From positions 343,163 through 407,162 of the forward strand of contig NW_018396400.1 in NCBI RefSeq assembly GCF_000003195.3: 64,000 nt of DNA, written 5' to 3'. This DNA comes from Sorghum bicolor (lineage: Eukaryota; Streptophyta; Magnoliopsida; Poales; Poaceae). How positions within the stretch are numbered: position 1 is the first letter of the stretch; the number at the start of each line of letters is the position of its first letter. This document shows positions 21,010-59,209 of the stretch, piece after piece. The translations under genes and the position numbers were made by a program. The notes beneath the pieces were generated by a model that was given only the letters and a program-made list of their open reading frames with translations, was not told where the DNA came from and searched no databases.

Positions 21010-21014
21010 CAAAC
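21010..21014 (+). repeat. Target-site duplication, left copy (CAAAC)
   Basis: CAAAC directly precedes the LTR start TGTAACACC and recurs as 35766-35770 directly after the 3' LTR end TGTGACA. Joining the flanks at this pentamer gives an uninterrupted satellite monomer boundary. This shows a single intact integration without later rearrangement. Confidence 0.95.
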
Positions 21015-21016
21015 TG

Positions 21017-21032
21017 TAACACCTCCGTGTTA
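21017..21032. other. Inverted repeat at the LTR edge
   Basis: TAACAC-CTCC-GTGTTA forms a 6-bp stem with a 4-base loop two bases inside the LTR terminus. The same hairpin is at 31755-31770 in the 3' LTR. It may simply be part of the terminal integrase recognition region; I assign no proven role. Confidence 0.5.
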
Positions 21033-23297
21033 AGCATGCATTATGCATATAACTAATTAACCTTAAACCTTCATTTAAGCATGGCATAAGCATCATCAAG
21101 CACTAACCCTAAATGCATCATTATTTTATGTGTTGCATTTGTTTTAATTTAATTAATTGCTTGAGTGTTGTTTTGTTAATTAATTGTCTTGCAAACAACT
21201 TGATCAAGTTTGGATCCATGTGCCTAGCCTTTCAAAATGATTTAGCAAAATTTATTGCAAAAGATTTGGTGCATTTTGGAGCAAAAGAAAATAAATTGGA
21301 AAAAATTTCCTATTATTCCCAAGATTCAAAATAAATTTGTGGTTCAAAAATTATTTAGAATTTTGAGTTGAGACCTAAATGAAAGTTGTTCAGCTTGAAA
21401 TTCTCTGCAACTTTTATTTTGGGCACTTTTCATGAAAAAGCTTTTAAATTTGCCAAATAATTGCATTTGAGTTGGATTAAAAAAAATAAAAAAATAAAAG
21501 GGGAACCAGCGCGAACCGGCAGGCCGGATTCGGCCCACACCGGCCCACCCGCCGCGTCCGCGTCCGCGCTCGCGCGCCGCGTGGCCGACCGGCCGCAGGC
21601 CAGGAGCGCCACGCGCTCGACGTCGCCTGGCCGCCGCGCCGCGTGGCCGGCGATGCCTGGCGAGCGGGCCCTACGACCGTGTACACCCGAAATGGGACGC
21701 GCCTCGTCCCATTTCACTCTCGCACTCGCTCAGCTGCGCCCTGCTCGCTCTCCCTCGCTCTCGCCGCGGCAGCCGCTGCAGCGCGCACGCCACCGCGACG
21801 CTCGCCGTCGCCGGCGTGTTCGGCCGTCACCGTGCCCGTTCAAGCCTCGCCTGCGCACGCTCGAGCTTCGCCACCACCTGCGCCACCCATCCGCTCGCTT
21901 CCCGCCACTGCCATCGTCGGTAAGGAGGCCGATTTGGCCGGTTCTTCCGCACCGCCATGGGCCGAACTCCGCAAGCTCGCGCGCCGCCGCGTCTCTGCCT
22001 CCCTGCTCCCTCCTTTTCTCTCTCTGCGCGCACCGGAGCCGCTAGACCTCGAATCGAGCGTCCGCACGCTCTATCGGAACAATGCGCGCGTAACGGCCAC
22101 CGCGCATTGCTCGTCGGAGCTTTTCTCCGCCGCCGAGCTGCCATGCACGCGGCCGAAAACCTCCAGCGCCCGACACACACACCAAACCTTAGGACTAGAT
22201 CCGCCTCGCACTCGCACGCGCGGTGCGCTCCTCGTCGGGGCCAACCGGCGCCGGAGACGGCCACCGCACCTCTGTGCCGACCGCCGGAGCGTCGGCCGCC
22301 GCCTCGGCCTGGCCGTGGGGTCTTGGGCCGAGGGGCTCAGCCTGGCAGCGGCCGCGGCCTGCTGGGCCGGCCCAGGCGCTAGGGTTTCAGCCCTTTTTTC
22401 TTTTATTTGATTTTCAGAAAAATGTTTTGATTAAGTTTGAATTTGTAGCTAGAGCAAATGAGATCCAAATTTGATGAAATTTGTTTTGTTAGACTTCTAC
22501 TGAGTAGATCTGTCATTGAAAAATATGAGATGTATTTTTGGTGAATATTTTCTGTGTAGATTTATTTAGTTGCTTAAATAGCTGAAATCTGAGTAAATGC
22601 ATAGTAAATAGTTTGTTGCTCTGAAAAATGTGATTCTTGTTTTGCTAGACTCTATGTGTGATGTAGTTGCTGGAAAAATTTAATGGAATGCAGTTACTGT
22701 ACAAAAATATTGGAAAATGAATTAATTTCATTTTGAGCTGATTCTTGTATGATTTTTAATAAATAAAATACGTGGAATTATGCCTTGATAATTTTTGCTA
22801 ACTTCTCTTGTGCTAAGTAGTATTAGACAAAAATATGAAATCTGTTGTTTGACACTTTTCACTGCACAAAGTTATTAAATGTGCATTTCTGACCAGTAGC
22901 TTCATCTTTTTGTGTAGGCTGCTGTACTTAGCAAACTGTGTTGAAAAATTTATCATGGTTCTGTTATAGCATAGTGTAGCTCCTGTAATTTTTGTAGAAT
23001 TTTCTGAACTGTCTAGACAGAGGTCACAGTTCAGGCCTATTTATTCACATGAAAAGATAAGTAATAGGATTAAAACGATTTAATGGTTTTTATATCCATT
23101 CTTGTGCATTTTCGATTATGTGATGCTTGCTGGTTCCTTGTTTGAGCATCATAGCTGAAATGTGATGCTGGTAATGAATCCTAGTTTTTCTCGTGTTTTT
23201 GCGTTTTTGTGTGTGTGCCTAGCCACACCGCTCTTCTTTGTGCACTTCTCTAAGTGTTTAGAGAAGAAGTATGCACTTACTCCGTAAATGAGTTAGG

Positions 23298-23687
23298 TTG
23301 TTAGTAGAAAAGAGATGCGCACCTATTCTATCAAAAGATTTATTAATCATCTTCATCCATGATCATCATACATCGTACATTCATGATACTTATGCACGTG
23401 CATCGCATCATACAGGTTCGCAAGAGGACCTCCCGTATTCGGAGATAGAGGAGAATGTTCAGGAGGAGCCCCAGCCGGAGGTCTCACAAGAAGAAGGCGA
23501 AGAGGAACTGCCGGAGTGCCCAGACCACCGCGCGTCTGACTTTGTGCAAGGCAAGCACCGGAGCATCCCCTTACCTATGCTTTCTAACAGTCTAATTATG
23601 CTTTTTGATTGTTGCATTAAGTATAGGAGTTGTGTGACACCGTTGCTGCATATTATCCTTGCTTTACCATTGATTATCCTACCTTGA
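23298..23687 (+). other. Acidic short ORF within the 5' LTR (129 codons)
   Basis: The middle of this ORF, after an AG splice-acceptor-like site ending at about 23415 (CATACAG), reads as an acidic, Glu/Pro-rich peptide (EEPQPEVSQEEGEEELPE) followed by a basic segment. The reading frame is also open in the 3' LTR at 34028-34417 with at least two amino-acid changes (S to L, E to K). It looks more protein-like than neighbouring LTR ORFs and could be an LTR-encoded exon, but nothing proves translation and two near-identical LTR copies are not independent evidence of conservation. Confidence 0.3.
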
Positions 23688-24731
23688 TATACCCTGCTAG
23701 TCTAGGGCGAGTTTATGCTTAGCCTGCTTAGACGGTAGAAGTCGGGTGATTTCCTGTCATCCGCGAGATAGGTGGTTACCTATGATTGATGGAAATTCTC
23801 ATGTTGCTAATCATCTGGTTAATGGCTATGGATGATAAATGGAGACCGGACGGAGTCTTGTGGGGTTGTTGGACCATAGTGATTCTGTCTGTGTCGATTA
23901 AGGACCGTACCGTTGTTGTACCCCAAGTCATGTTGAACGCACGCCTCATGTTTAGCTGGCCGGATAAGTCGTTCCGACCGTGAAGCCCAACACTATCCGG
24001 GCCGATTCTCGATCCGTTCGCACCGTATTGGAGATGGATGGGGGACCACGGGGGCGCGAAGAGTAAGTCCGAGGTCCAGCATGGCTGGCTAAGGCAGTCG
24101 GGCGGTTCCCGGGTACGGAGGTTCTATGCGAGTCCGCGTGCTTGTCTTCCTGGATACGTGCCATGGTGATCTGTAACTCGCTTTAGCGGGTGAGTGTGGT
24201 TTGCATGAGGAATACCCCTGAGCTCAGTAGTAATCGATTCGAATCGCCATCGTTCCTGGACAGTGAACACTTGACTTGAGCTGCACCATCGTAGTAATGA
24301 TTATGGAATGTGGTTAATGATGATGATGGGTTAAGTTGATGAATATGATTATGGATACTACTTACTTGCTTAATCATGATTAATACTATAATGTTGCTTA
24401 GTACAGGTGCCCACTTAGTATAAGTAGGAATGATTAAGCTGAGCTATTTATTAAATGTTACTACTGCTTTTCCGCCAAAAGAGTCAAGCTATCCCCTGAT
24501 AAAGCCGGTCATCCTCCTTGGAGTCTTTTCTTTTGAGTTAGTCGGGTAAGTCTAGCTGGGTACCTTCTCGTACTCAGGGTTTTTCCCGCTTGTTGTTTGT
24601 GCAGACGGGCATACCTACCACGGGTATTGCGAGACCTGTCTTTTCCCAGTGGACTAGAAGGCCTTGGGAAAGGCTGATCTTAATACTCTCTCTCCAACTG
24701 CTTTTGATGGATGGACTCTGGACTGGCACTG

Positions 24732-24738
24732 TATAAAT
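24732..24738 (+). promoter_or_regulatory. Candidate TATA box of the 5' LTR
   Basis: TATAAAT lies 296 bp before the LTR end, a reasonable place for the U3/R boundary of an element transcribed from its LTR. The same motif is at 35462-35468 in the 3' LTR. The LTR is AT-rich here, so chance occurrence is possible. Confidence 0.3.
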
Positions 24739-25036
24739 CTTTAAAAGTGTGAGTTGGGTTGAGGTTTTAAAACTATCTTGTTTCCGCTATTTGGACTTGA
24801 GGAACTTGGTTTGTAATAACTTTATTTCCGCACTCTGATGTTGTTGAACTATTTGCGAAATGTTGTAACATGCGAATGGTGACGCTAAACTTGTACGACC
24901 TTGGTTGATGATGTTTGGTTTGAAATCCTTCGAGATTTCCAGACTACCGGGTTTATAGCGGCTTAAGTGTGACAATTGCTTGTTTAGCGAGTGATGTTTC
25001 ACTTATGCTTTTATAATTGGTCGGTTCTGTGACAGC

Positions 25037-25052
25037 AGGTATCAGAGCAAGG
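25037..25052 (+). promoter_or_regulatory. Primer-binding site, initiator tRNA-Met type
   Basis: GGTATCAGAGCAAGG, starting 3 bases after the LTR end, matches the plant initiator tRNA-Met complement (GGTATCAGAGC core). It is where minus-strand reverse transcription would start. The first base of the usual TGG is A here. Confidence 0.85.
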
Positions 25053-25864
25053 TTTGGCGATTACTGTTCACATGTCTATTTAAAACAAAAGAAATTGCTT
25101 TCAAAACTGGATTTCAACTTATAGATCTATAAGCCTTTTTGAGAAAAATTTCGTTTACAAAACTAAGAGTGTGCCAGTGGTCATATCCTTTATGCCCAAA
25201 TAAGGACTTTAGGTGGCTATTTAAGTACTAACTTGGGGGCTTGCATCATATTTTGATTTCACTGTTGCCCATGCAGCAAGGTAATTGTATGGGTGCCATT
25301 CGCTTGAATGGTAATGTATGGTTCCCTTTGCCTCTACGCTTCGGTAAGTGGGAGTTGTGAGAGCATGGTTGTCCAACTGGCAATCTAGGGGAGTGCTAGT
25401 GTGATACCGGAAGTACTTACATGTCAAAACCATGTACTTACCAAGGTGTTTAATTGTGGGTTGTGCCGTCTGTTGAGACGATGCCGTCTTTGGACAAGGA
25501 TCGGGTAGTTGTACTACATGTGCGTGTATTTGGGAATGCACGTGCGTGTGAGTGCTTAATCTTTATTTTTCTGCAATGCATTTGTTCATACTGTTGGGAT
25601 GGGCTGAAGTGGATTTTCTGCAGGTACATAACAGCGATTCGTGTAGAACGACTAGTTTTACGCTATGAGAGAACGTTGTATGCCACCGTATATCCGCTAG
25701 AATTATTTTTTTTTGCTAAGTTTTTGAGGACGTAAGATGCGTGCATACATCATGGTTTGTTCATCCCATGTTGTTACATTTACCTTCCCTTATAAACTGA
25801 TTCTTCTGTTAATTAAAAACTGGTTGATTAATAACTTGACTCATCCGGGGTAAATTTCTCACAG
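25053..25864 (+). other. Leader between primer-binding site and ORF1, with splice-like signals
   Basis: No convincing coding region is seen in these 812 bp. Good 5' splice-donor matches occur at 25281 (CAAG|GTAATT) and 25344 (TTCG|GTAAGT). The leader ends in AATTTCTCACAG, a textbook 3' splice acceptor, directly against the ATG of the next ORF. A spliced transcript joining the LTR leader to ORF1 is a reasonable inference. A T-run is at about 25708-25716. Confidence 0.5.
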
Positions 25865-26914
25865 ATGGCTCGCACAAAGCAGACCGCTCGCAAGTCCACT
25901 GGAGGACGTGCGCCACGTGGACAGCTCGCGCCTCGCACCACTTTCCGGGAGGGCTACTTCTTGGAGGAGTTTGGGATGCCCACGCTTCTTTTGCGTGTGC
26001 TGGCCCTTGTGGGGTATACAGAGGAGCAGCGACCTGTATACTCCTGGGTGACTGAGGAGCCGAGCGATAGAGACGACCTAGTCGCTGTGGAGGTTACCGT
26101 CCCACCACTCCACGAGGACTCGGAGTGGGAGGGGTGGCGCATTCGTGCCTATGGAGTCACGCCGGGAGAGGGGGCTAGCAGAGTTGCCTTCTCTGTCCTA
26201 CGCATCATCATGGAGTGTTTTCCGCTGAGCCTAGCACAGGCTATGGCGGGAGTGTTTCCTCGTGGTGACCCTGCTAACACCTTCTGGGAGCAGTCTCCCA
26301 ACATGGCACGCTGGCCTGGACTTCATGAGATTGAAGACAGTGACAACGCAGCAATGAGTGCTATGTTTGCTATGATGCAGACCTTGGATGCTACCCAGTC
26401 TTGCATGTACAAGATCAATGACTGGAACAAGACCTTGACGGAGAGGCAAGAGAAGAAGAAGAAGAGGCACTCGGATCATGTCAGAGATCTGAGGCTCCAG
26501 ATAGACCTTCTCACTGCTACCAGGGATGACGCTGAGGCCCGTGAGAGAGCTGCCAACAAGGAGATCGCTACCTTGCGTGCACGTGTGGCACGCTATGAGC
26601 AGTACGAGCGGAATGCCGACAGGATGATGGCCCAGTTGGTCACTGAGAGGAATGAAGCCCGGAACGATGCTCACCAGCTGGGGCACTGGCTCTTTGACCG
26701 AGAGCAGTACATCACTCAGCTACACGAGGACTACCACGTGCTGTACAACCAGCTTCACCACGTTCCCGCGCCTGGAGCTGCTGAGATGGAGCCTGGGGTT
26801 ATCAACCCCAATGGAGGCGAGGAGGACGCTGACCTTCCACCTGCACCTGCGCCTGCACCCGACGACCACGTGGTTCTTGCTGCCGAGTCTGACGTTGGTA
26901 GCGAGCACGAGTAG
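25865..26914 (+). CDS. Element-encoded protein with a histone H3-tail N-terminus (ORF1, 349 aa)
   Basis: Residues 2-14 read ARTKQTARKSTGG, identical to histone H3 positions 1-13; over H3 1-21 the match is 19 of 21. K4, R8, K9 and S10 are kept, whereas K14, K18 and K23 are replaced by R, G and R. There is no histone fold afterwards. Residues 27-165 form a Trp-containing globular region I do not recognise. Residues 196-201 are a basic patch (EKKKKR, possible nuclear signal), about 185-297 are predicted coiled coil, and 305-349 are an acidic Pro/Ala-rich tail. The frame is intact although the neighbouring gag-pol is broken. The start is chosen because the H3 match begins at this ATG, which directly follows a splice-acceptor-like CTCACAG. 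Extra ORFs upstream of gag are known in some grass gypsy elements; one with an H3 tail is not something I recall. A nuclear, chromatin-interacting role is inference. Confidence 0.8.
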   Translation: MARTKQTARKSTGGRAPRGQLAPRTTFREGYFLEEFGMPTLLLRVLALVGYTEEQRPVYSWVTEEPSDRDDLVAVEVTVPPLHEDSEWEGWRIRAYGVTPGEGASRVAFSVLRIIMECFPLSLAQAMAGVFPRGDPANTFWEQSPNMARWPGLHEIEDSDNAAMSAMFAMMQTLDATQSCMYKINDWNKTLTERQEKKKKRHSDHVRDLRLQIDLLTATRDDAEARERAANKEIATLRARVARYEQYERNADRMMAQLVTERNEARNDAHQLGHWLFDREQYITQLHEDYHVLYNQLHHVPAPGAAEMEPGVINPNGGEEDADLPPAPAPAPDDHVVLAAESDVGSEHE

Positions 26915-27260
26915 GCTAGTAGTTCCATCGCTAGTCATAGTGGCGCTTTTGTCTCTTTCGTTGTTGGCATGTAACCCTTATGAGTATAACTCATGTGTGT
27001 TGGATCGTCATATGTTGTGGTGCTACCTGAACACCTCAAGTCCAGTGTATGTATGCTGGCAATTTTGGATGATGTATGCCTCAGATGATGTCTTTTATTC
27101 AGTAATATAAGTAGTGATGTTATGGATTGTGGAAATGAATCTTTATGCCTGCGTATTGTTGAATGAATTCATTTCTTCCAATAATGCACTGGCATGATTA
27201 TTACATTCGCTTACAATGTTGTAACATCACCTAATGATTACTTGATGCTGAAATATGTAG
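26915..27260 (+). other. Spacer between ORF1 and gag
   Basis: This 346-bp AT-rich stretch has no convincing ORF. It ends AAATATGTAG directly before the gag ATG, again a possible splice acceptor. That mirrors the arrangement in front of ORF1 and suggests gag could be expressed from a differently spliced mRNA. Confidence 0.45.
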
Positions 27261-28249
27261 ATGGTTGACACTCGCCGTACCGCTAGTGGCTCTCTGGTGG
27301 GAGATGGTTCCGGCCAGGGCGATGGAGGCAATGGAAATGGTGGAAATGGTAATGGAGGCAATGGGGGTAATGGAGCAAACCCAAGGACCAAACTGCCACC
27401 TCCACCTCCCAACCCATTGACAGCTGAGCAGCTCTTCCAGCAGTTCCTCGGCAGTCAGCGCAACATGGAGGCCACATTGCGTGACATTGCAGCAAACACC
27501 AGTCACGGAGGCCACCGTGACCGCCCAGTGAATCAGTATAGCACTTTCAAGGATTTTCTGGACACGGATCCGCCAAAGTTCTTGCAAGCTAAGGAACCGC
27601 TCGAGGCTCTCGAGTGGATCAATACCATGGAAGACAAGTTTCGCCTGCTCCGCTTGACTGAGTCGCTGAAGGTTGAGTATGGTGCCCATCAACTGCAGGG
27701 GCCGGCTGGAATTTGGTGGTCCCACCAACGCACCACTTTTCCGCCGAATGCTCCTATCACCTGGCGCAGTTCACCCAGATATTCCGCAGCACCTATGTCC
27801 CACCAGGTCTGATGGCCATGAAAGTGTCTGAGTTCATGAGGCTCACTCAAGGCAGTAAAAGTATGAATGAATATCTGCAAGAGTTCAATAAACTGTCCCG
27901 TTATGCTCCGTCATATGTGGACACTGAAGAGAAGAAGATAGAAAGTTTCAAAAGAGGCCTCAATACAAAGATGGCTAAAACCATGGGTATCAATTCGAGG
28001 ACTACATTCAATGCGTTCATCAGCGACTGCTTGACTCAAGAAAATAATAACAATCTGCATGCCGCTTCCAAGAATCGCAAGAGAGGCTTCGAGGGAGGAT
28101 CTTCCCAGTTCCGACCTCCAATGCCTAACCGTCAGCAGTATCGCCCTCCTGTTCAGAACTCAAGGTTTCGTGCACCTGCTCCCAAGAGGAATGCTCCACC
28201 ACCTCCGAAGAATCAGAGGGGCTATCGCCCACCTGCACCCCAAGCTTAA
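27261..28249 (+). pseudogene. gag segment (capsid), frameshifted and truncated
   Basis: Starts MVDTRRTASG, has a Gly/Asn-rich low-complexity stretch (about residues 17-45), then the retrotransposon gag core (DPPKFLQAKEPLEALEWI ... LQGPAGIWW). The core shifts frame at about 27763 and continues with a YVPPGLMAMKVSEFMRLTQ block to a basic Pro/Arg-rich tail. The frame then meets TAA at 28247. Gag would form the cytoplasmic particle that packages element RNA. The ATG directly follows an AG dinucleotide. Confidence 0.85.
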
Positions 28250-28285: not shown

Positions 28286-29386
28286 GTGAGAGGCCCGTGC
28301 TTCAACTATAACCAACCAGGTCACTTCGCCAAGTACTGCCCATACCCGAAGAAGCAGACAACCTACCAAGCCCGTGCTCACCACACCTCTGTGAATGAGA
28401 TTCCTGATGGCGAACCAGTCACTGCGGGTACGTTTCTTGTCAACAAACATCCTGCAGTTGTTTTATTTGATTCTGGATCATCGCATTCTTTCATGAGTCA
28501 AGCATATGCACGGTCACATGAGTTAAAACTTAAGCAATTGGATTATGGGTACCGCATCAGTTCTGCTGGTGCTGACGTCCTATCTAATCAAATGCTTGAG
28601 CATGCAACTTTTGAAATTGGAGATAAAGCATATAGAGTTAATTTGGTAGTGTTACCTGGGTTAACTATGGATGTGATCTTGGGTATGGATTGGATGAAAG
28701 ATAAGCAAGTGGTGATTGATACTGGGAATAGAACCGTTACCCTCACAGATCCTCAGGGTAATGACACTTTTCAAGTGGTATTACCTCGAGTTGCAGACAT
28801 GACCAAGTTAACCTATGCTATTCGAGCTTCTTCGCTTGCCGAGATTCCAGTAGTCTGTGAATTCCCTGATGTCTTTCCTGAAGATTTGCCTGGGTTGCCT
28901 CCTAAAAGAGACATTGAGTTTGCAATTGATTTAGTGCCTGGTACAGCTCCAATCTGCAAGAGACCGTATCGTATGCCTCCCAATGAGTTAGCAGAGCTGA
29001 AGAAACAGTTGTATGAGCTGAAGAAGTTGGGTTTCATCAGGCCAAGTACTTCTGAATGGGGTTGTCCAGCTTTGTTTGTGAAGAAGAAAGATCATTCCTT
29101 GAGGCTATGTGTTGACTATCGGCCGCTCAATGCCGTGACAATCAAGAACAAGTATCCTCTGCCGAGAATTGATATTTTGTTTGATCAGTTGTCTAAAGCT
29201 AAAGTGTTTTCCAAGATTGACTTGAGATCAGGGTATCACCAGATCAGGATTCGTCCTGAAGATATACATAAGACTGCTTTCGTTACTAGATACGGGTTGT
29301 ATGAATATCTTGTTATGTCTTTCGGCCTAACAAATGCTCCTGCATACTTTATGTATCTTATGAATTCAGTCTTTATGCCCGAATAG
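28286..29386 (+). pseudogene. zinc knuckle, protease and N-terminal reverse transcriptase segment
   Basis: Opens with a gag zinc knuckle ([14 protein letters not shown]) whose second cysteine is tyrosine, so metal binding should be impaired. An aspartic protease follows with the active-site DSG at 28469 ([11 protein letters not shown]) and flap-side ILGMDWM. The RT then runs through the fingers/palm with RSGYHQIRI and [14 protein letters not shown] at 29384, nine codons before the RT catalytic pair, cuts the frame. The true frame continues on both sides; the start given is simply the first ATG after the previous stop. Confidence 0.85.
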
Positions 29387-29395
29387 GATAAGTTC

Positions 29396-31135
29396 GTGAT
29401 TGTATTCTTGGATGACATTCTGATCTACTCTGCAAATGAAGAAGAACACGCCCAGCATCTGCGAGTTGCACTTACCAGACTAAGAGAGCATAAGTTGTAT
29501 GCCAAGTTCAGTAAATGTGAGTTTTGGTTAAAGGAAGTTGCCTTCCTTGGCCATATCATTTCTGAAAATGGCATATCAGTCAACCTGTCAAAGGTACAAG
29601 AGGTCATGGATTGGCAACCGCCCACGTCTGTGCATGAAGTTCGGAGTTTTCTAGGAATGGCAGGATATTATCGCCGTTTCATTCCAGATTTCTCTAAGAT
29701 TGCCAAGCCAATGACAAGTCTACTACAGAAAGAACACAAGTTTGTCTGGACAGAAGAGTGTGAGGCAGCTTTCCGCACCCTGCGAGAATTGCTAACCACT
29801 GCTCCTGTTTTGGCACAGCCTGATATCGAGAAGCCGTTTGAGGTGTACTGTGATGCATCGAAGACCGGTTTAGGGTGTGTGCTGATGCAAGAAGGCCGAG
29901 TGATCGCTTATGCTTCACATCAGTTGAGAAAGCATGAAGTCAACTATCCCACGCATGATCTTGAGTTAGCTGCAGTTGTGCATGCCTTGAAGATATGGAG
30001 GCACTATCTGTTGGGAAATGTATGCAATATCTATACAGATCACAAAAGTCTCAAGTACATTTTTACCCAACCTGAGCTTAACATGAGACAACGAAGATGG
30101 TTAGAGCTAATCAAGGACTATGACTTGACAGTGCACTATCACCCTGGCAAGGCAAACGTAGTTGCGGATGCTTTGAGTCGCAAGTTACATCATCATGCTG
30201 TGAAGCCGATGGTTGAAGAGAGGTTCAATCTGATGCATCCTGCAGTCCTGCATGATATCCAAGTTCGATGTTCTCTTGACCAGCAGATCATTGAAGGCCA
30301 AAAGACTGATCCTGGCATATATCACCTCAAAGAAAGAATGAAGAAGGAATCAATTCCGCATTTCAGAATCGATGACAGTGGTGTACTTTGGTTCGATACT
30401 CGTCTTGTCGTGCCGAAGGACCGAGAACTCAAGAACAAGATAATGGATGAGGCTCACCTTTCCAAGCTATCCATTCACCCTGGAAGCAACAAGATGTATC
30501 ATGACCTAAGACCCCGCTATTGGTGGACCAAGATGAAGAAAGAGATAGCAGCATATGTGGCTCGATGCGATACTTGTTGTCGTGTCAAGGCCATTCACAT
30601 GAAGCCGGCAGGTTTGTTAAAGCCGTTACCAGTTCCTGCTTGGAAGTGGGATGACATAAGTATGGATTTCATCACGGGTCTGCCAACTACACAAAAGGGT
30701 AATGATTCAATTTGGGTAGTCGTTGATCGACTAACCAAGTCAGCTCACTTCTTACCTGTCAAGACAACATACAGACCACCTCAATATGCTGACCTCTACA
30801 TTAAAGAGATTGTCCGTTTACATGGGGTACCCAAGACCATCGTATCTGATAGAGGATCGCAGTTCACCGCTCACTTTTGGACCCGTTTACATGAGGGTAT
30901 GGGTACTAAGTTGCTGCACAGCACTGCTTATCATCCTCAGACTTCGGGTCAGACTGAAAGACTTAATCAAATTCTTGAAGACATGTTGAGAGCTTGTGTG
31001 CTGTCTGCCAAGGGTTCGTGGGAATCTTGGCTACCTCTGGCTGAGTTTTCCTACAACAATAGCTATCAAGGGAGTATCAAGATGGCGCCGTTTGAAGCTT
31101 TATATGGCAGAAAGTGTAGAACTCCGTTGAACTAG
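29396..31135 (+). pseudogene. Reverse transcriptase palm, RNase H and integrase core segment
   Basis: The RT catalytic FLDD starts at about 29405, with its two Asp codons at 29411-29416. RT thumb and connection follow ([12 protein letters not shown]), then RNase H (CDAS with Asp at 29852; [15 protein letters not shown]). Integrase has an HHCC zinc domain at about 30450-30590 and the DDE core with Asp 30665, Asp 30848 and Glu 30956, all present. A TAG at 31133 cuts the frame before the C-terminal domain. All catalytic residues I can check are intact despite the stops. Confidence 0.88.
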
Positions 31136-31699
31136 GTAGAAGCGGGAGAAAGGAGATACTACAGTATTGACTTTGTTCCCGAAGCTGAAAAGAAGGTTCG
31201 AACCATCCAAGAACACATGAAAGCTGCACAGTCCCGACAAAAGAGTTATGCTGATATTAGAAGAAGACCATTAATGTTCGAAGTGGGTGACTATGTTTAT
31301 CTCAAGGTTTCACCGATAAAAGGTACACAAAGGTTTGGAGCCAAGAGGAAGCTTGCACCAAGATATGTGGGTCCATACAGGATTCTTGAAAGAAGAGGTG
31401 AAGTTGCTTACAAGTTGCAGTTGCCTGAGTCAATGAGTTCCATCTTTCCGATCTTTCACGTCTCTCAGTTGAAGAAGTGTTTACGAGTACCCGAAGAAAG
31501 GGTCGATGAGCGAGATTTGAAGCTAGCAGCTGATCTTGTCTATAAAGAAGAACCAGTAAGAATTGTGGATAGCAAAGAAAGAATTACTCGGAATCGCTTG
31601 GTGCGCACTTACAAGGTTGTGTGGAGCTACCATGATGATAGAGATGCATCATGGGAAACTGAGGATTACCTGAAAGAAGTTTATCCCGAATTCCATTAA
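31136..31699 (+). pseudogene. Integrase C-terminus with chromodomain
   Basis: In-frame continuation after the TAG. It includes a basic integrase C-terminal region (GDYVYLKVSP, GPYRILERRGEVAYKLQLP, FPIFHVSQLKKC) and ends in a chromodomain-like module at about 31540-31699 (EEPVRIVDSKE, then VVWSYHDDRDASWE). Its aromatic and acidic residues sit where chromodomains bind methyl-lysine peptides. In chromoviruses this module steers integration toward marked chromatin. This context matters because the same element encodes an H3-tail mimic upstream. Confidence 0.8.
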
Positions 31700-31739: not shown

Positions 31740-31752
31740 AAGGGGGTAGGGC
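31740..31752 (+). promoter_or_regulatory. Polypurine tract (plus-strand primer)
   Basis: AAGGGGGTAGGG followed by C lies directly before the 3' LTR start at 31753. RNase H would leave this tract as primer for plus-strand DNA. The purine run, with one internal T, is typical of chromoviruses. Confidence 0.85.
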
Positions 31753-34700
31753 TGTAACACCTCCGTGTTAAGCATGCATTATGCATATAACTAATTAACC
31801 TTAAACCTTCATTTAAGCATGGCATAAGCATCATCAAGCACTAACCCTAAATGCATCATTATTTTATGTGTTGCATTTGTTTTAATTTAATTAATTGCTT
31901 GAGTGTTGTTTTGTTAATTAATTGTCTTGCAAACAACTTGATCAAGTTTGGATCCATGTGCCTAGCCTTTCAAAATGATTTAGCAAAACTTATTGCAAAA
32001 GATTTGGTGCATTTTGGAGCAAAAGAAAATAAATTGGAAAGAATTTCCTATTATGCCCAAGATTCAAAATAAATTTGTGGTTCAAAAATTATTTAGAATT
32101 TTGAGTTGAGACCTAAATGAAAGTTGTTCAGCTTGAAATTCTCTGCAACTTTTATTTTGGGCACTTTTCATGAAAAAGCTTTTAAATTTGCCGAATAATT
32201 GCATTTGAGTTGGATTCAAAAAAAATAAAAGGGGAACCAGCGCGAATCGGCCCACACCGGCCCACCCGCCGCGTCCGCGTCCGCGTCGCCGCGCGCCTCC
32301 CGCGCACCGCGTGGCCGACCGGCCGCAGGGCAGGAGCGCCACGCGCTCGACGTCGCCTGGCCGCCGCGCCGCGTGGCCGGCGATGCCTGGCGAGCGGGCC
32401 CTACGACCGTGTACACCCGAAATGGGACGCGCCTCGTCCCATTTCACTCTCGCACTCGCTCAGCTGCGCCCTGCTCGCTCTCCCTCGCTCTCGCCGCGGC
32501 AGCCGCTGCCGCGCGCACGCCACCGCGACGCTCGCCGTCGCCGGCGTGTTCGGCCGTCACCGTGCCCGCTCAAGCCTCGCCTGCGCACGCTCGAGCTTCG
32601 CCACCACCTGCGCCACCCATCCGCTCGCTTCCCGCCGCGGCCATCGTCGGTAAGGAGGCCGATTTGGCCGGTTCTTCCGCATCGCCATGGGCGGAACTCC
32701 GCAAGCTCGCGCGCCGCCGCGTCTCTGCCTCCCTGCTCCCTCCTTTTCTCTCTCTGCGCGCACCGGAGCCGCTAGACCTCGAATCGAGCGTCCGCACGCT
32801 CTATCGGAACAATGCGCGCGTAACGGCCACCGCGCATTGCTCGTCGGAGCTTTTCTCCGCCGCCGTGCTGCCATGCACGCGGCCGAGAACCTCCAGCGCC
32901 CGACACACACACCAAACCTTAGGACTAGATCCGCCTCGCACTCGCACACGCGGTGCGCTCCTCGTCGGGGCCAACCGGCGCCGGAGACGGCCACCGCACC
33001 TCCGTGCCGACCGCCGGAGCGTCGGCCGCCGCCTCGACCTGGCCGTGGGGTCTTGGGCCGAGGGGCTCAGCCTGGCAGCGGCCGCGGCCTGCTGGGCCGG
33101 CCCAGGCGCTAGGGTTTCAGCCCTTTTTTCTTTTATTTGATTTTCAGAAAAATGTTTTGATTAAGTTTGAATTTGTAGCTAGAGCAAATGAGATCCAAAT
33201 TTGATGAAATTTGTTTTGTTAGACTTCTACTGAGTAGATCTGTCATTGAAAAATATGAGATGTATTTTTGGTGAATATTTTCTGTGTAGATTTATTTAGT
33301 TGCTTAAATAGCTGAAATCTGAGTAAATGCATAGTAAATAGTTTGTTGCTCTGAAAAATGTGATTCTTGTTTTGCTAGACTCTATGTGTGATGTAGTTGC
33401 TGGAAAAATTTAATGGAATGCAGTTACTGTACAAAAATATTGGAAAATGAATTAATTTCATTTTGGGCTGATTCTTGTATGATTTTTAATAAATAAAATA
33501 TGTAGAATTATGCCTTGATAATTTTTGCTAACTTCTCTTGTGCTAAGTAGTATTAGACAAAAATATGAAATCTGTTGTTTGACACTTTTCACTGCACAAA
33601 GTTATTAAATGTGCATTTCTGACCAGTAGCTTCATCTTTTTGTGTAGGCTGCTGTACTTAGCAAACTGTGTTGAAAAATTTATCATGGTTCTGTTATAGC
33701 ATAGTGTAGCTCCTGTAATTTTTGTAGAATTTTCTGAACTGTCTAGACAGAGGTCACAGTTCAGGCCTATTTATTCACATGAAAAGATAAGTAATAGGAT
33801 TAAAACGATTTAATGGTTTTTATATCCATTCTTGTGCATTTTCGATTATGTGATGCTTGCTGGTTCCTTGTTTGAGCATCATAGCTGAAATGTGATGCTG
33901 GTAATGAATCCTAGTTTTTCTCGTGTTTTTGCGTTTTTGTGTGTGTGCCTAGCCACACCGCTCTTCTTTGTGCACTTCTCTAAGTGTTTAGAGAAGAAGT
34001 ATGCACTTACTCCGTAAATGAGTTAGGTTGTTAGTAGAAAAGAGATGCGCACCTATTCTATCAAAAGATTTATTAATCATCTTCATCCATGATCATCATA
34101 CATCGTACATTCATGATACTTATGCACGTGCATCGCATCATACAGGTTTGCAAGAGGACCTCCCGTATTCGGAGATAGAGGAGAATGTTCAGGAGGAGCC
34201 CCAGCCGGAGGTCTCACAAGAAGAAGGCAAAGAGGAACTGCCGGAGTGCCCAGACCACCGCGCGTCTGACTTTGTGCAAGGCAAGCACCGGAGCATCCCC
34301 TTACCTATGCTTTCTAACAGTCTAATTATGCTTTTTGATTGTTGCATTAAGTATAGGAGTTGTGTGACACCGTTGCTGCATATTATCCTTGCTTTACCAT
34401 TGATTATCCTACCTTGATATACCCTGCTAGTCTAGGGCGAGTTTATGCTTAGCCTGCTTAGACGGTAGAAGTCGGGTGATTTCCTGTCATCCGCGAGATA
34501 GGTGGTTACCTATGATTGATGGAAATTCTCATGTTGCTAATCATCTGGTTAATGGCTATGGATGATAAATGGAGACCGGACGGAGTCTTGTGGGGTTGTT
34601 GGACCATAGTGATTCTGTCTGTGTCGATTAAGGACCGTACCGTTGTTGTACCCCAAGTCATGTTGAACGCACGCCTCATGTTTAGCTGGCCGGATAAGTC

Positions 34701-35765
34701 GTTCCGACCGTGAAGCCCAACACTATCCGGACCGGTTCTCGATCCGTTCGCACCGTATTGGAGATGGATGGGGGACCACGGGGGCGCGAAGAGTAAGTCC
34801 GAGGTCCAGCATGGCTGGCTAAGGCAGTCGGGCGGTTCCCGGGTACGGAGGTTCTATGCGAGTCCGCGTGCTTGTCTTCCTGGATACGTGCCATGGTGAT
34901 CTGTAACTCGCTTTAGCGGGTGAGTGTGGTTTGCATGAGGAATACCCCTGAGCTCAGTAGTAATCGATTCGAATCGCCATCGTTCCTGGACAGTGAACAC
35001 TTGACTTGAGCTGCACCATCGTAGTAATGATTATGGAATGTGGTTAATGATGATGATGGGTTAAGTTGATGAATATGATTATGGATACTACTTACTTGCT
35101 TAATCATGATTAATACTATAATGTTGCTTAGTACAGGTGCCCACTTAGTATAAGTAGGAATGATTAAGCTGAGCTATTTATTAAATGTTACTACTGCTTT
35201 TCCGCCAAAAGAGTCAAGCTATCCCCTGATAAAGCCGGTCATCCTCCTTGGAGTCTTTTCTTTTGAGTTAGTCGGGTAAGTCTAGCTGGGTACCTTCTCG
35301 TACTCAGGGTTTTTCCCGCTTGTTGTTTGTGCAGACGGGCATACCTACCACGGGTATTGCGAGACCTGTCTTTTCCCAGTGGACTAGAAGGCCTTGGGAA
35401 AGGCTGATCTTAATACTCTCTCTCCAACTGCTTTTGATGGATGGACTCTGGACTGGCACTGTATAAATCTTTAAAAGTGTGAGTTGGGTTGAGGTTTTAA
35501 AACTATCTTGTTTCCGCTATTTGGACTTGAGGAACTTGGTTTGTAATAACTTTATTTCCGCACTCTAATGTTGTTGAACTATTTGCGAAATGTTGTAACA
35601 TGCGAATGGTGACGCTAAACTTGTACGACCTTGGTTGATGATGTTTGGTTTGAAATCCTTCGAGATTTCCGGACTACCGGGTTTATAATGGCTTAAGTGT
35701 GACAATTGCTTGTTTAGCGAATGATGTTTCACTTATGCTTTTATAAATTGGTCGGTTCTGTGACA
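31753..35765 (+). repeat. 3' LTR of the Tekay-like element (4,013 bp)
   Basis: Starts TGTAACACC, ends TGTGACA. By eye it differs from 21015-25034 at roughly 30 bases plus indels: one of about 14 bp near 32247, and rearranged GC-rich bases at about 32280-32310. It carries the same internal GC-rich block, the acidic short ORF (34028-34417) and the TATAAAT at 35462. Confidence 0.95.
34028..34417 (+). other. Acidic short ORF within the 3' LTR
   Basis: Counterpart of 23298-23687 with at least two amino-acid changes. The frame remains open. It is listed only so both copies are on record; coding status is unproven. Confidence 0.3.
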
Positions 35766-35770
35766 CAAAC
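35766..35770 (+). repeat. Target-site duplication, right copy (CAAAC)
   Basis: Matches 21010-21014. The satellite resumes at once with a C-type monomer (CGTGCACCTATC), in register with the B-type monomer that ends at 21014. Confidence 0.95.
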
Positions 35771-51511: not shown

Positions 51512-52425
51512 TGATGAGGACATCAACACCAGCGATACATCCTCTCCGACACAACCCATAGCTGGTCCTCTTACTCGTGCTCGTGTTCGTCAACTTAATA
51601 ATCAAGTGAGTTCCTTGATAAGCTCGTGTCCATCTTGTTTAGACAATGGAAACGCGTGTACTCTTGTTTTGATTAGAAACCAAGGAGAAGACCGAAAGGG
51701 AGAAGGACTCACGCTCGCTGGATTCGGACAGCAGCAAAGCGCCAACTGGTGACTGTTACCACGGTTGCATACGGATACGGATTCAGGCGCTTCAGGACTT
51801 GTTGGAAAGCTTATCAAGTCTACTTTCATAGGAATCAAGTCCCACGTCAATACCTGTTCGGCAGCAGCGGCAATGATCCAATTACCGTCGATAGGTCTTG
51901 CTGTCCAGGGTGCTGCGTCACCTCATTTTGGGCTGATGGCCCATGTATCAAGTTGGGTCCATTTGGGACGCGTCCTAGGGTTGGAGAACGACCCCAACAC
52001 CTCTTTGGTCGTCAATCCATCTACTTATATCCCTCTAGAGCTGCCATGGTCGTTGGGTTTTGTTTAGATCAAGTTTAGCCTTCGCTACTTGCTTGTAGGC
52101 GCGCGTGCAGGATCAGCCGCCCGTCTCCTTGTCTTCGGAACCCCATTGTTGATTCAGATTCAGTTTGAAACCTTCAATTCATCTTGCAAATTCAGTGCTT
52201 GTTTCCTCGTTCTTGCTAGTTCTTCGATTGCTTGCAGGACGGGAGCCCTAGGGGCTGGTTGTCGCGCTCCACAAGATCGTGATGGCTATTGGACGTGGTG
52301 TATCGGTTGCTAAGGCGCGGTCTTGAGGGCTGTAGTCAGGCCGTGAACGTCATCTCCATCCACCAATCGAGTTATCCCCGTCTCTCATCAAAAGATCAGG
52401 CAAAAACCCTAGCGGGTGCGCATCA
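51512..52425 (+). repeat. 5' LTR of the CRM-like element (914 bp)
   Basis: Termini TGATG...CATCA are inverted repeats of 5 bp. The first 220 bp correspond to the pol C-terminus seen in the 3' LTR. Here the frame has CAG at 51729 where the 3' LTR has TAG, and stays open to TGA at 51750. The stop that ends pol in the 3' LTR is therefore a difference between the two LTRs. Confidence 0.95.
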
Positions 52426-52427
52426 GT

Positions 52428-52444
52428 TGGTAATCAGAGCAAGG
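52428..52444 (+). promoter_or_regulatory. Primer-binding site, tRNA-Met type
   Basis: TGGTAATCAGAGCAAGG begins two bases after the LTR end. It resembles the initiator tRNA-Met complement with one extra A inside the GGTATCAGAGC core. Confidence 0.8.
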
Positions 52445-53542
52445 TTCTTCGGTGAGAGACTTCTAATCCTTTGCTGTTTTTAATTAATTTCCTATAGTCC
52501 AGAAAAGCTAAAAAAAATATAGTAGATTAGTTTTTTCCATAATCCTATTAAACCTTTGTGCCTTGGCTAGTACCGTTTTAGTTAGGGCTTGTTGAATTTG
52601 CGTTGCTTCGGTTTGTGTCGAGTTGCTGGTCTTAGTGTCTAGTCCTTTAGAGTTTCGAGTTCTTGTCACCATCTATACACAGCCGAGTATTTCCATATCT
52701 TCTCTCTGTCGAATATGTTGCGAAGTCCGAATTGAATTGTGGTCTTGGTCTGGATCGAGTAGAGTTCCAATCTGAGTTCCACCAACGTGATAAAAAAAGA
52801 AGGAAACCGAGTAGAACTCAGCAATAGGTGGAATCTGTTTTGTGGTTGTTTCTGAGTGGAAACCGAATAGAACTTGGAGTCCGCTTGTTAATATAGCCTG
52901 AACTCCGTCTATGTGAGTCCTTCTGTGATCCAAAAAGAAAGATAACTCCATACTTGTTCGGCCATACTTTACCGGAATACCCCTGTACTTTCGGAAAAAA
53001 GTGTGTGTAGCGAATTGCTCTTTTGTATTCTTTTGTTCATATAATCAGTTTTTGAGGTTGCCCAAAAAAAAGAGAAAAAAAAAGAGAAAAAAAAGAAAAA
53101 GATTCAAAAGAAAAAAAAAGAAGGGGCTGTTTTTCATATTGTTTTTAGGTTTGTTCCACCTTGTTTTCGGGGGTGTGCTGTGGTTTTCCTTTGTGTCCAG
53201 GCTCGCGTCTCTAGCACGGTCTAGCCTAGGACCAGCACAGTACCATCGTCGAACGCTTATTCAGCTCGCTATTATAACTAACGTGGTGCTAGTTCGTTCC
53301 TTGTTTCAGCCCACCTATAGCTCCACATACTCTACAGCTTGACAGGTCTTGTGCTGCAGCACCGATACACTTCGTCCATTGTTGTACACTTGTTGGCAGA
53401 CGACCCCTCCTGTCAAGCAAGGTAAGAATTGGTAAGAACTTGTGTTACAGGTTGAGTGTGAGCGACTTGCTGTAGCTACATCCTAGTAGTTGTAGGGCTT
53501 TTATTTCTTCACTTGCCTTTTTGTTGTCTTTGTCTTTGAACC
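52445..53542 (+). other. Leader of the CRM-like element
   Basis: About 1.1 kb without a convincing ORF. It contains a long A-rich purine stretch at about 53065-53125 (runs of AAAAAAAGAG) and donor-like CAAG|GTAAGA at about 53420. Untranslated leaders of this size occur in CRM elements. The purine tract might affect replication or translation, but no function can be shown. Confidence 0.5.
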
Positions 53543-55812
53543 ATGCCAGGGGCAGATGATGGTAACGAAACACCACATACACCTGGCACTAAGGGCATCA
53601 TACAACATTTTGAAAGGAAAGTGAAGCTGCACACAGAGGGACTTGATAACGACTTGCAGGTGACAAATGAAAAGCTGGGGCAGTTGGAGGCTACGCAGAT
53701 TGCCACAAACAGCAAGCTCACAAGTTTGGAGGAATCCGTTGCTAGTGTGGACAAAAGCCTTGCTGCTCTCCTAAGGTGATTTGATGATTTCCACACCGAA
53801 GATAAAGAGAAGCATAAAGAAGAAAAGGAGGGAGATCGAGAGCACGGTAGTCATGAAGATGACTACACTGGTGATACTGAACATGATGATCAAGACACTC
53901 GTGATCGACGTCGCCTTCGTCACAACCGTAGAGGTATGGGTGGCAACCGCCGACGCGAGGTACACAATAATGATGATGCTTTCAGTAAGATTAAATTTAA
54001 GATACCCCCTTTTGATGGTAAATATGACCCTGATGCTTACATCACTTGGGAGATTGCTGTTGATCAAAAGTTTGCATGTCATGAATTTCCTGAGACTACA
54101 CGTGTTAGGGCTGCTACTAGTGAGTTTACAGATTTTGCTTCTGTTTGGTGGATAGAATATGGAAAGAAAAATCCTAATAACTTACCTAGAACTTGGGATG
54201 CGCTGAAAAGGGCCATGAGAGCTAGATTTGTTCCATCTTACTATGCGCGTGATATGATAAATAAGTTGCAGCAATTAAGACAAGGTGCTAAAAGTGTAGA
54301 AGAATATTATCATGAATTACAAACGGGTATGTTGCGTTGTAACCTAGAGGAGGATGAGGAACCGGCTATGGCTAGATTTTTGGGTGAGTTAAATCGGGAA
54401 ATTCAGGACATCCTCGCTTACAAAGAATACAATAATGTAACCCGTTTGTTTCATCTTGCTTGTAAAGCTGAAAGGGAAGTGCAGGGACGACGTGCTAGCG
54501 CAAGGAGTAATATTTCTGCAGGGAAGGCTAATTCATGGCAGCAACGCGTGGCTTCAACTCCATCTACACGTATTTCTACTCCATCATCTAGTGACAAGAC
54601 TCGAGCTGCCCCCACCAATTCAGTTGCGAAGATGATGCAAAAGCCTGCTGTGAGTACTTCATCCGTGGCCTCGACGGGTAGAACAAGCAACATACAATGT
54701 CACCGGTGCAAGGGATATGGGCACATGATGCGTGACTGTCCAAACAAGCGAGTTATGATTGTCAGGGATGATGGTGAGTACTCATCTGCTAGTGATTTTG
54801 ATGAGGATACACTTGCACTGCTTGCGACTGACCATGCAGGTAATGAAGATCAAATAGAAGAACATATTAATGCAGGTGAAGTGGACCACTATGAGAGGTT
54901 GATCGTGCAGCGAGTGCTTAGTGCACAAATGGAGATGGTGGAGCAAAATCAGCGACACATTTTATTCCAAACAAAGTGTGTCATCAAAGAGCGTTCTTGT
55001 CGCATGATCATTGATGGAGGTAGCTGCAACAACTTGGCAAGCAGCGATATGGTGCAGAAGCTTGCCCTCAACACCAAACCACACCCGCATCCCTACTAAA
55101 TCCAATGGCTGAACAACAATGGTAAGGCAAAGGTAACTAGACTTGTGAGAATTAGTTTTTCCATCGGATCCTACAAAGATATTGTTGAATGTGATGTTGT
55201 GCCTATGCAAGCTTGTAACATTCTGCTAGGTAGACCTTGGCAATTTGATAGAGATTCTATGCATCATGGTAGATAAAATCAGTATTCTTTTCTATACCAT
55301 GATCGCAAAATTGTGTTGCATCCTATGTCCCCTGAAACTATTATGCAAACTGATGTTGCTAGGGCTACTAAAGCAAAGAGCGAGAGCAATAAAAATGATA
55401 AATCTGTAATTGGTAACAAAGATGAGATAAAACTGAAAGGACGTTGTATGATAGCTACCAAATCAGATATTAATGAGTTCAATGCATCCACTTCTGTTGC
55501 TTATGCTTTGATATGCAAGGATGCTTTGATTTCAATTGAGGATATGCAATGTTCTTTGCCCCCTGCTGTTGCTAACGTTTTGCAGGAGTATTCTGATGTG
55601 TTTCCAAGTGAGGTACCAGCGGGGCAGCCTCCACTACGCGGGATTGAGCACCAAATTGATCTTATTCCTGGAGCAGTTTTGCCAAATCGTGCACCATACA
55701 GGACAAACCCGGAGGAAACAAAGGAAATTCAGCGACAAGTGCAAGAACTACTAGACAAAGGTTATGTCCGAGAATCTCTTAGTCCTTGTGCTGTTCCAGT
55801 AATTTAGTGCCT
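53543..55812 (+). pseudogene. gag, protease and start of RT, CRM-like, broken
   Basis: Starts MPGADDGNETPHTPG. A short coiled-coil-like segment (residues about 15-75) ends at a TGA (53777). The frame then continues through an acidic stretch, an Arg-rich patch (RDRRRLRHNRR) and the gag core (FKIPPFDGKYDPDAYITWEI; WWIEYGKK). An intact zinc knuckle follows at about 54700 (CHRCKGYGHMMRDC), and an aspartic protease with D-G-G at 55013. TAA stops at 55097 and 55274 interrupt the protease region. A one-base loss at about 55804 shifts the frame just after CAVPVI at the start of RT. The parts are collinear, so this is a decayed intact gene. Confidence 0.85.
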
Positions 55813-56921
55813 AAGAAAGATGGAACATGGCGTATGTGTGTTGATTGTAGAGCTATTAATAATATCACCATTCGATATCGACACCCTATTCCACGATTAG
55901 ATGATATGCTAGATGAGCTGAGTGGTGCTGTTGTGTTTTCAAAAGTTGATTTACGTAGTGGGTACCACCAGATTCGTATGAAATTGGGAGATGAATGGAA
56001 AACTGCTTTCAAAACTAAGTTCGGTTTGTATGAGTGGTTAGTCATGCCTTTTGGGTTAACTAATGCACCTAGTACTTTCATGAGATTAATGAATGAGGTT
56101 TTGCGTGCTTTCATTGGGAAATTTGTTGTCGTATATTTTGATGACATATTGATTTACAGCAAATCATTGGATGAACATCTTGATCATTTACGTGCTGTTT
56201 TTAATGCACTACGCGAGGCACGTTTATTTGGTAACCTTGAGAAGTGCACCTTTTGCACCGATCGAGTGTCTTTTCTTGGTTATGTTGTGACTCCACAGGG
56301 AATTGATGTTGATCAAGCCAAGGTGGAAGCTATACAGGGATGGCCTGTCCCAAATACTATCACCCAGGTGCGGAGTTTCCTAGGACTTGCTGGATTCTAT
56401 CGCCATTTTGTGAAGGATTTCAGCACCATTGCTGCACCATTGAATGAGCTTACAAAGAAGGGGGTGCCTTTTGATTGGGGCAAAGCACAAGATAATTCAT
56501 TCAACATGTTGAAAGATAAGTTAACTCATGCACCTCTCCTACAACTTCCTGATTTTAATAAGACTTTTGAGCTTGAATGTGATGCTAGTGGAATTGGTTT
56601 GGGAGGTGTTTTATTACAAGAGGGAAAACCTATTGCATATTTTAGTGAGAAATTGAGTGGGCCTGTTCTCAATTATTCAACTTATGATAAAGAACTCTAT
56701 GCTCTTGTTAGAACATTAGAGACATGGCAGCATTATTTGTGGCCCAAAGAGTTTATTATCCATTCTGATCATGAATCTTTGAAACATATTCGTAGTCAAG
56801 GAAAACTGAATCGTAGGCATGCAAAATGGGTTGAATTTATTGAATCTTTTCCTTATATTATTAAGCACAAGAAAGGGAAGGAAAATATTATTGCTGATGC
56901 TTTATCACGGAGATATACTTG
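55813..56921 (+). pseudogene. Reverse transcriptase and RNase H segment, CRM-like
   Basis: Continues one frame over from the gag part. RT has [20 protein letters not shown] and the catalytic YFDD with its Asp pair at 56140-56145, then the thumb/connection ([12 protein letters not shown]). RNase H has CDAS with Asp at 56581, [10 protein letters not shown] and ADALSRR just before the gap. No stops occur in this part. It would copy element RNA into DNA and remove the RNA strand. Confidence 0.88.
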
Positions 56922-57021
56922 NNNNNNNNNNNNNNNNNNNNNNNNNNNNNNNNNNNNNNNNNNNNNNNNNNNNNNNNNNNNNNNNNNNNNNNNNNNNNNN
57001 NNNNNNNNNNNNNNNNNNNNN
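56922..57021. other. Assembly gap (100 N)
   Basis: Exactly 100 unknown bases between the RNase H end and the start of integrase. A round number usually means a gap of unknown length. The flanking protein regions normally lie close together, so the true missing sequence may be much shorter than 100 bp. Confidence 0.9.
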
Positions 57022-58510: not shown

Positions 58511-59204
58511 CAGCAAAGCGCCAACTGGTGACCATTACCATGGTTGCATACGGATACGGATTCAGGCGCTTCAGGACTTGTTGGAAAGCTTATCAAGTCT
58601 ACTTTCATATGAATCAAGTCCCACGTCAATACCTGTTCGGCAGCAGCGGCAATGATCCAATTACCGTCGATAGGTCTTGCTGTCCAGGGTGCTGCGTCAC
58701 CTCATTTTGGGCTGATGGCCCATGTATCAAGTTGGGTCCATTAGCGACGCGTCCTAGGGTTGGAGGACGACCCCAACACCTCTTTGGTCGTCAATCCATC
58801 TACTTATATCCCTCTAGAGCCGCCATGGTCGTTGGGTTTTGTTTAGATCAAGTTTAGCCTTCGCTACTTGCTTGTAGGCGCGCGTGCAGGATCAGCCGCC
58901 CGTCTCCTTGTCTTCGGAACCCCATTGTTGATTCAGATTCAGTTTGAAACCTTCAATTCATCTTGCAAATTCAGTGCTTGTTTCCTCGTTCTTGCTAGTT
59001 CTTCGATTGCTTGCAGGACGGGAGCCCTAGGGGCTGGTTGTCGTGCTCCACAAGATCGTGACGGCTATTGGACGTGGTGTATCGGTTGCTAAGGCGCGGT
59101 CTTGAGGGCTGTAGTCGGGCCGTGAACGTCATCTCCATCCACCAATCGAGTTATCCCCGTCTCTCATCAAAAGATCAGGCAAAAACCGTAGCGGGTGCGC
59201 ATCA
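58291..59204 (+). repeat. 3' LTR of the CRM-like element (914 bp)
   Basis: Same length as the 5' LTR with about 17 substitutions and no indels by eye. Its first 220 bp are read as the integrase C-terminus. Ends GCGCATCA. Confidence 0.95.
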
Positions 59205-59209
59205 ATTTC
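59205..59209 (+). repeat. Target-site duplication, right copy (ATTTC)
   Basis: Matches 51507-51511. The E-type monomer resumes in register (ATTTCTGAGCC). Confidence 0.95.

Follow-up and report, generated by a model that had tools for sequence, protein, structure and literature searches.

The window analysed here, i.e. the whole stretch of 64,000 nucleotides from Sorghum bicolor (contig C14:343163-407162 of the 709-Mb genome G000), consists mainly of tandem satellite in 137-bp units, which we take to be the sorghum centromere repeat, and is interrupted by two long terminal repeat (LTR) elements. The first of these is flanked by the target site duplication CAAAC (21010-21014, with the same five bases at 35766-35770) and bounded by a 5' LTR of 4020 bp (21015-25034, +, TGTAACAC...CTGTGACA) and a 3' LTR of 4013 bp (31753-35765, +). 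Between its 5' LTR and gag lies an intact extra open reading frame (aORF, 25865-26914, +), which codes for a protein of 349 amino acids (aa) with the first residues MARTKQTARKSTGGRAPRGQLAPRTTF. The start of this protein, MARTKQTARKSTGGRAPRGQLAPR, corresponds exactly to residues 1-13 of histone H3 and, judged from sequence comparisons, is very likely an H3-tail mimic maintained by selection.

The exact match to H3 1-13 and the 19 matching residues of 21 claimed in the original prediction were both borne out by translation of the frame and by a phmmer search. The two differences are K14 to R and K18 to G, and the similarity to H3 ends at H3 21-23; the mimic as delimited here comprises the start Met plus H3 1-23 (24 codons, 25865-25936, +, ARTKQTARKSTGGRAPRGQLAPR) and is basic (7 K/R of 24). 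Against PDB sequences the protein gave 134 matches at E <=10, and the 60 listed were all histone H3-family chains, the best of them (E 1.5e-5, 27.5 bits) pairing residues 1-24 with residues 1-24. The property by which a histone mimic is recognised, a contiguous match that includes a modifiable lysine, is thereby present, with H3 1-13 exact in the window protein and K9-S10 in 21 of 21 aligned tail rows. The histone domain (PF00125) is absent among the four Pfam families listed for the protein at E <=1, and a truncated histone gene was ruled out as the nature of the frame, as the protein has no histone fold. Histone-family loci gave 60 matches in the genome, none of them on contig C14.

The remainder of the protein agrees with what had been proposed for it, namely a globular region, a coiled coil and an acidic tail. 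Beyond a variable linker (25937-25972, +), residues ~35-124 are predicted to adopt the alpha-beta-beta-beta-alpha fold of a double-stranded RNA-binding domain (dsRBD; delimited as aa 37-125, 25973-26239, +). The same fold is predicted for a tailless relative, so that proteins with the dsRBD and coil but lacking the tail occur in a sister group. The folds closest to the modelled domain are those of DRB7.2 (with DRB4) and of the second dsRBD of DCL4 (with DRB4), although further dsRBDs, among them RNA-binding ones, score only ~1-2 Z units away; these DRB7.2 and DCL4 domains share the predicted fold of residues 35-124 but show only 12% identity to it in one fold comparison and 13-17% in another, with no Pfam match, and partners are not inferable from fold. 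The domain is acidic (7 K/R versus 14 D/E of 89 residues), and the start of helix 2, where RNA-binding (type A) dsRBDs carry the KKxAK motif, reads GASRVAFSVLR. Protein-binding dsRBDs are acidic and without KKxAK, and the modelled domain is probably of this type. None of the four families that Pfam gave for the window protein (E <=1) is a dsRBD, nor was one found among the best 25 of 67 Pfam families for nine other proteins (set A3). A long predicted helix or coiled coil (aa 155-297, 26327-26755, +; predicted local distance difference test (pLDDT) score >90 for ~181-290) is followed by a predicted acidic, disordered C-terminus (aa 298-349, 26756-26911, +; 12 D/E, 0 K/R). The coil also contains a KKKKR stretch (26450-26470), which on its own might suffice for nuclear import.

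The tail is not peculiar to the window copy. A genome search with the window protein yielded 116 scored matches of 3015 first-look candidates, and one with the protein of a related subfamily (fam2) yielded 117 of 3402; all 116 and all 117 align from residue 1, both lists being the best-scoring places and hence biased to complete copies. Starts were read in 72 distinct copies, comprising five of the window subfamily (fam1), 63 of fam2/2b and four of the six listed places resembling a further subfamily (fam4), while L095-L098 were left out as duplicates of copies already read. The tail is present in all 72, as is K9-S10. The four other fam1 copies are 89-95% identical to the window copy, and the fam2/2b copies are ~42-46% identical to the window protein. 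The fam2 tail, ARTRLTARKSTGGRAPR, has K4 and Q5 replaced and K9 retained, while that of fam4 reads ART-R/H-QTARKSTGGRVPRHQLAPR with small differences between copies, one of which has a stop codon inside the tail. By reading, the fam4 proteins (L100, L103, L104 and L106) lack the dsRBD-like part and continue after the tail with a Ser/Asp-rich stretch, a helical-looking leucine-spaced stretch and an acidic end. In those fam2 and fam4 loci that were tested, the aORF is followed by gag-like sequence.

A profile search extended these observations to other sources, with 297 homologues among 8000 scored candidates, of which the best 120 are listed. The tail occurs in protein P0010 of Aristida adscensionis and in 12 further proteins, and P0010, P0006 and P0009 show 24-27% identity to the window protein over the whole alignment, tail included. 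Of 126 proteins collected, 13 are tailed, 65 have recognised tailless starts and 47 were unclassified by pattern, many of the last being incomplete or plainly of the tailless kind; a 14th pattern match, P0007, is a true fish histone and was excluded from the tail rows. Among the rows of the tail clade that reach the start, 13/13 are tailed, while P0008 starts within the tail. In viral contigs no tail-coding match was found, nor any relatives with P0006 or P0003, and the start was read in five of ten tailless loci (L009-L018). The presence of the tail in several subfamilies and in Aristida disposes of the possibility that it is unique to this copy, and chance or artefact as its source was ruled out by its occurrence in 72/72 related copies and in 13 homologous proteins from elsewhere, as the original prediction had anticipated.

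Comparison of fam1 with fam2 indicates how the tail has been kept. Over H3 1-17, 15 of 17 residues (88%) are conserved, while 8 of the 15 kept codons differ synonymously; the proportion of synonymous differences (pS) is 0.54 and the ratio of nonsynonymous to synonymous change (dN/dS) is 0.08, or 0.06 against fam2b. In the body, 118 of 295 residues (40%) are kept with a dN/dS of 0.21 and dS near saturation, and the difference in kept residues between tail and body is significant (Fisher p 1.5e-4). The synonymous divergence combined with low dN/dS therefore argues that the tail was kept as protein and not as recently copied DNA; conservation at the protein level amid synonymous change is the opposite of random drift in these codons, and the earlier suggestion of histone-tail mimicry is supported, with selection as the force that kept it. 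In 21 aligned tail rows (P0075, with one G missing, was excluded from column counts) A1, T3, A7, K9, S10, G13, P16, L20 and A21 are invariant, K14 and K23 are R throughout and K18 is never K, while R2 is kept in 20/21 and K4 in 14/21. As K14, K18 and K23 are gone and K4 is variable, K9 is the only lysine that is always kept.

With respect to origin, the end of the tail falls on or close to the coding exon 1 boundary of H3.3-type genes. A single gain is probable, for which uptake of that exon from a host gene of this type would be the simplest route. It had been left open whether the tail was captured or evolved; of the two, capture is the more likely, given the derived changes common to the tails (K14R, loss of K18, K23R) and the exon 1 boundary, and these common changes also disfavour repeated recapture from host genes. 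CENH3 was ruled out as the source, since locus L054, which we take to be CENH3-like, reads MARTKHQAVRK. In its codons, fam4 copy L100 has 10/16 in common with the H3.3-type gene L049 as opposed to 2-4/16 with three H3.1 genes, while the window copy has 9/19 in common with the best of both types; the preference for H3.3 over H3.1 is thus weak, and GC content at third codon positions differs between the genes. A clear splice acceptor directly before the ATG is seen in locus L049 but not in L047 or L048. In the elements, an acceptor-like CAG immediately precedes the aORF (25862-25864, + in the window copy), and 18/18 copies (five fam1, five fam2/2b, four fam3 and four fam4, tailless ones included) have AG in this position. 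Similarly, AG directly precedes the gag start (27258-27260) in the 3/3 fam1 copies read. Conserved donor-like sites for these AGs were not found, and spliced expression of the aORF is put forward as a conjecture. As a separate observation, the H3-like loci L051, L052 and L053 have altered tails (MARTKCTARKS, MARTKSTARNS and MARTKCWARRS), two of them without K9.

A protein whose coiled coil would present H3-like tails in which K9 is the sole constant lysine is best accounted for as a ligand or substrate of the H3K9 machinery, and that this machinery is the partner of the tail is fairly probable on the sequence pattern. Met-Ala starts lose their Met, and its removal would expose Ala1 to give an ARTK start as in H3; oligomerisation of the coil could then display several tails together as decoy substrates or ligands for SUVH-type writers and chromodomain or BAH readers. 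The requirements of plant SET-domain writers centre on H3 7-10, and H3 residues 5-10 are mostly kept in the mimic tails. Occupation of the H3K9 methylation machinery would in turn blunt transcriptional silencing of the element, while the likeness of the dsRBD to DRB7.2 and DCL4 might provide a second arm directed at RNA silencing. As described in the literature, silencing of plant retrotransposons involves H3K9me2 looped with CHG methylation (PMC9033089, PMC6318295), ADCP1 reads R2-K4-K9me2 and animal HP1 chromodomains read H3 residues 5-10 (PMC6318295). A decoy or anti-silencing outcome falls slightly short of an even prospect, and the overall reading of a selected H3-tail mimic on a dsRBD fold and coil, serving as an H3K9 silencing decoy, is held in even balance. 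A more elaborate form is speculative and rather unlikely: a two-layer suppressor, in which coil-displayed K9 tails would titrate the H3K9me2-CHG loop and the DRB7.2-like dsRBD would titrate siRNA (small interfering RNA) partners of DRB4/DCL4 type, the tail being a captured H3.3 exon that has lost the acetylatable K14, K18 and K23 yet always retains K9, and often K4, and that is taken for a silencing substrate and not for an activating tail.

Several observations weigh against the reading as a selected decoy. The queries used for copies and homologues contained the tail, and the 21 tail rows are not independent of one another. Tailless aORFs outnumber tailed ones (65 versus 13 among those recognised by pattern), and because they are commoner the tail must be unnecessary for the spread of such elements. 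When H3 1-23 is taken as a whole, its dN/dS of 0.15 equals that of body residues 37-180 (0.15, dS saturated). Within fam2 (60 in-register copies; L075, included in the tail count, was not used) the ratio of nonsynonymous to synonymous differences per site (pN/pS) is 0.38 in the tail versus 0.33 in the body, and the nonsynonymous deficit in the tail relative to the rest is not significant (p 0.14), a test of little power, given that the proteins of these copies share 98-100% identity. Among 66 fam2/2b sequences, Ala1 is missing from one (MPRTR) and T11I is present in one. As only some rows retain both R2 and K4, fam2 and fam4 having lost K4 and a few rows varying at R2 or R8, readers of R2-K4-K9me2 such as ADCP1 would see some tails only. 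With regard to capture, exon 1 appears to stop before that point in the three H3-like loci L051-L053, which bear introns, and a start codon was not found in the H3-like locus L050. Furthermore, the gag-pol of the window copy is defective, with a frame change in gag and in-frame stops.

Alternatively, the K9-methylated tail could be a targeting tag that tethers the integration complex to heterochromatin and satellites through host H3K9me2 readers or through the element's own integrase chromodomain. The window copy does sit in the 137-bp satellite and the element codes for a chromodomain-like integrase end; moreover, plant type II chromodomains are described as lacking an identified partner (PMC6317226), and a tail made by the element would be a possible one. 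The original prediction had likewise regarded the element as centromere-resident, which holds for the window copy with its satellite surroundings and CAAAC duplication but not for the family: the remaining four copies of fam1 map to C1, C5 and C7, in one case at 76.0 Mb out of 80.9 Mb, and each of C1-C10 is represented among the fam2 places listed. As the Chromo match also remains under the Pfam cut-off, targeting appears somewhat unlikely. Interference with RNA silencing, in which the dsRBD fold would do the work by capturing partners of DRB4 or DCL4 type while the tail would only localise it, is compatible with a decoy, the two being non-exclusive. The closest modelled folds and the acidic, KKxAK-less domain would fit it, while fam4 retains the tail without any dsRBD-like part, other dsRBDs score almost as close, and fold similarity is no proof of a partner where the window protein has no Pfam dsRBD match; it is regarded as unlikely.

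A function restricted to nuclear import, or to riding on H3 chaperones, would be consistent with the basic composition of the tail, and yeast Kap123 is reported to read an import signal in the H3 tail (PMC5677370). Such a signal would not be expected, however, to retain S10, T11, G12, G13 and the start position and yet drop K14, K18 and K23; the KKKKR stretch in the coil could already serve this purpose, and tailless relatives manage without the tail, which together make this explanation quite improbable. Capture of host sequence by retroelements is well known in general, and within fam2 the pN/pS of the tail resembles that of the body, as expected if the tail were a functionless, hitch-hiking piece of a histone gene. 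That it is such a relic of chance capture is nevertheless very hard to reconcile with a dN/dS of 0.08 over H3 1-17 in the face of large synonymous change between fam1 and fam2, with its presence in fam4 despite the absence of the dsRBD-like part and with its retention in 13/13 complete rows of the tail clade. The H3K9 decoy is retained as the preferred reading. H3K9 methylation is a main mark for silencing plant retrotransposons, and this lineage kept a likeness of the H3K9 substrate while most of the protein changed; if the reading is true, it would constitute a retrotransposon counter-measure at the level of the H3K9 mark itself and assign a function to the 5' aORFs that have long been orphans in grass chromoviruses. 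The tailed, K4-less, dsRBD-less and tailless versions form a natural set for comparing function.

A resemblance of such frames to H3 is probably already known. The abstract of Steinbauerova et al. 2011 reportedly states that some 5' extra ORFs of Poaceae chromoviruses are partly similar to the histone H3 gene and ascribes this to cellular capture; those ORFs share position, lineage and plant family with the window aORF, which appears to differ in that its likeness to H3 is confined to the tail, lies precisely at the N-terminus, is centred on K9, selected and exon-bounded, and is fused to a dsRBD and coil. The portions available of papers citing that work do not repeat the resemblance. An H3 tail in these elements was not described in the titles and abstract starts of the open-access literature searched, among the matches listed, and no paper with the exact mimic string was found in the open-access literature; the combination of a dsRBD protein with a tail that is under selection, centred on K9 and bounded by an exon thus seems new within the open-access papers searched. 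For the aORF proteins of maize Tekay and sorghum Sb7, PMC11728184 describes a long helix at the C-terminus and a weak fold match to a DRBM-containing protein (template modelling (TM) score 0.35-0.37), both in agreement with the present protein, and the word histone is absent from its main text. Retrosat2, RIRE3, RIRE8 and Sorsat2 are similarly long-LTR (>3 kb) grass elements with an ORF0 upstream of gag-pol, for which PMC3485330 gives model-inferred hydrolase or acyltransferase functions, with 0 occurrences of histone in the main text. Other parasite proteins imitate the H3 tail in the region of a modified lysine, among them influenza NS1 (ARSK) and, although disputed, SARS-CoV-2 ORF8 (ARKS) (PMC10208167, PMC10833455). 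These viral mimics are short motifs, whereas the window aORF, which belongs to an LTR retrotransposon of a plant, has 13 contiguous residues at the true N-terminus of its protein.

The element that carries the aORF is a Tekay-like grass chromovirus (Ty3/gypsy), a label based on its anatomy and on papers dealing with such elements, and it has the aORF/ORF0 layout of grass elements, with LTRs >3 kb and a sense-strand frame after the 5' LTR and before gag at 27261. The primer binding site GGTATCAGAGCA (25038-25049, +) is presumably of the initiator-Met tRNA type, and the polypurine tract is AAGGGGGTAGGGC (31740-31752, +). Gag (27261-28249, +) has TAG directly 5' and a broken frame in the window copy, and protease, reverse transcriptase (RT), RNase H and integrase follow as two open pieces with in-frame stops (28286-31135, +). 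This domain order was found with Pfam on pieces searched apart, with E values of 4.4e-13 (Retrotrans_gag), 1.9e-30 (RVP_2), 2.5e-17 (RVT_1), 5.3e-35 (RNase H) and 5.5e-18 (H2C2), while the rve match (E 3.0e-6, 27.9 bits) is below the cut-off of 32.6. The integrase C-terminus (31217-31699, +) has SH3-like and chromodomain-like parts (PF24626, E 1.2e-25), the match to Chromo (PF00385) being weak (E 0.0012, 19.2 bits, cut-off 25.1). The two LTRs differ by 31 substitutions over 3999 aligned sites (Kimura two-parameter (K2P) distance 0.0078), which suggests a young element of about 0.3 million years at a rate of 1.3e-8 per site and year. Elsewhere in the window, runs of N occupy 56922-57021 (100 bases) and 61959-62947 (989 bases), and ORFs spanning them are unreliable. 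The second Ty3/gypsy element in the satellite (51512-59207) has LTRs of ~917 bp that differ at 18/917 sites, and is presumably of the centromeric CRM kind.
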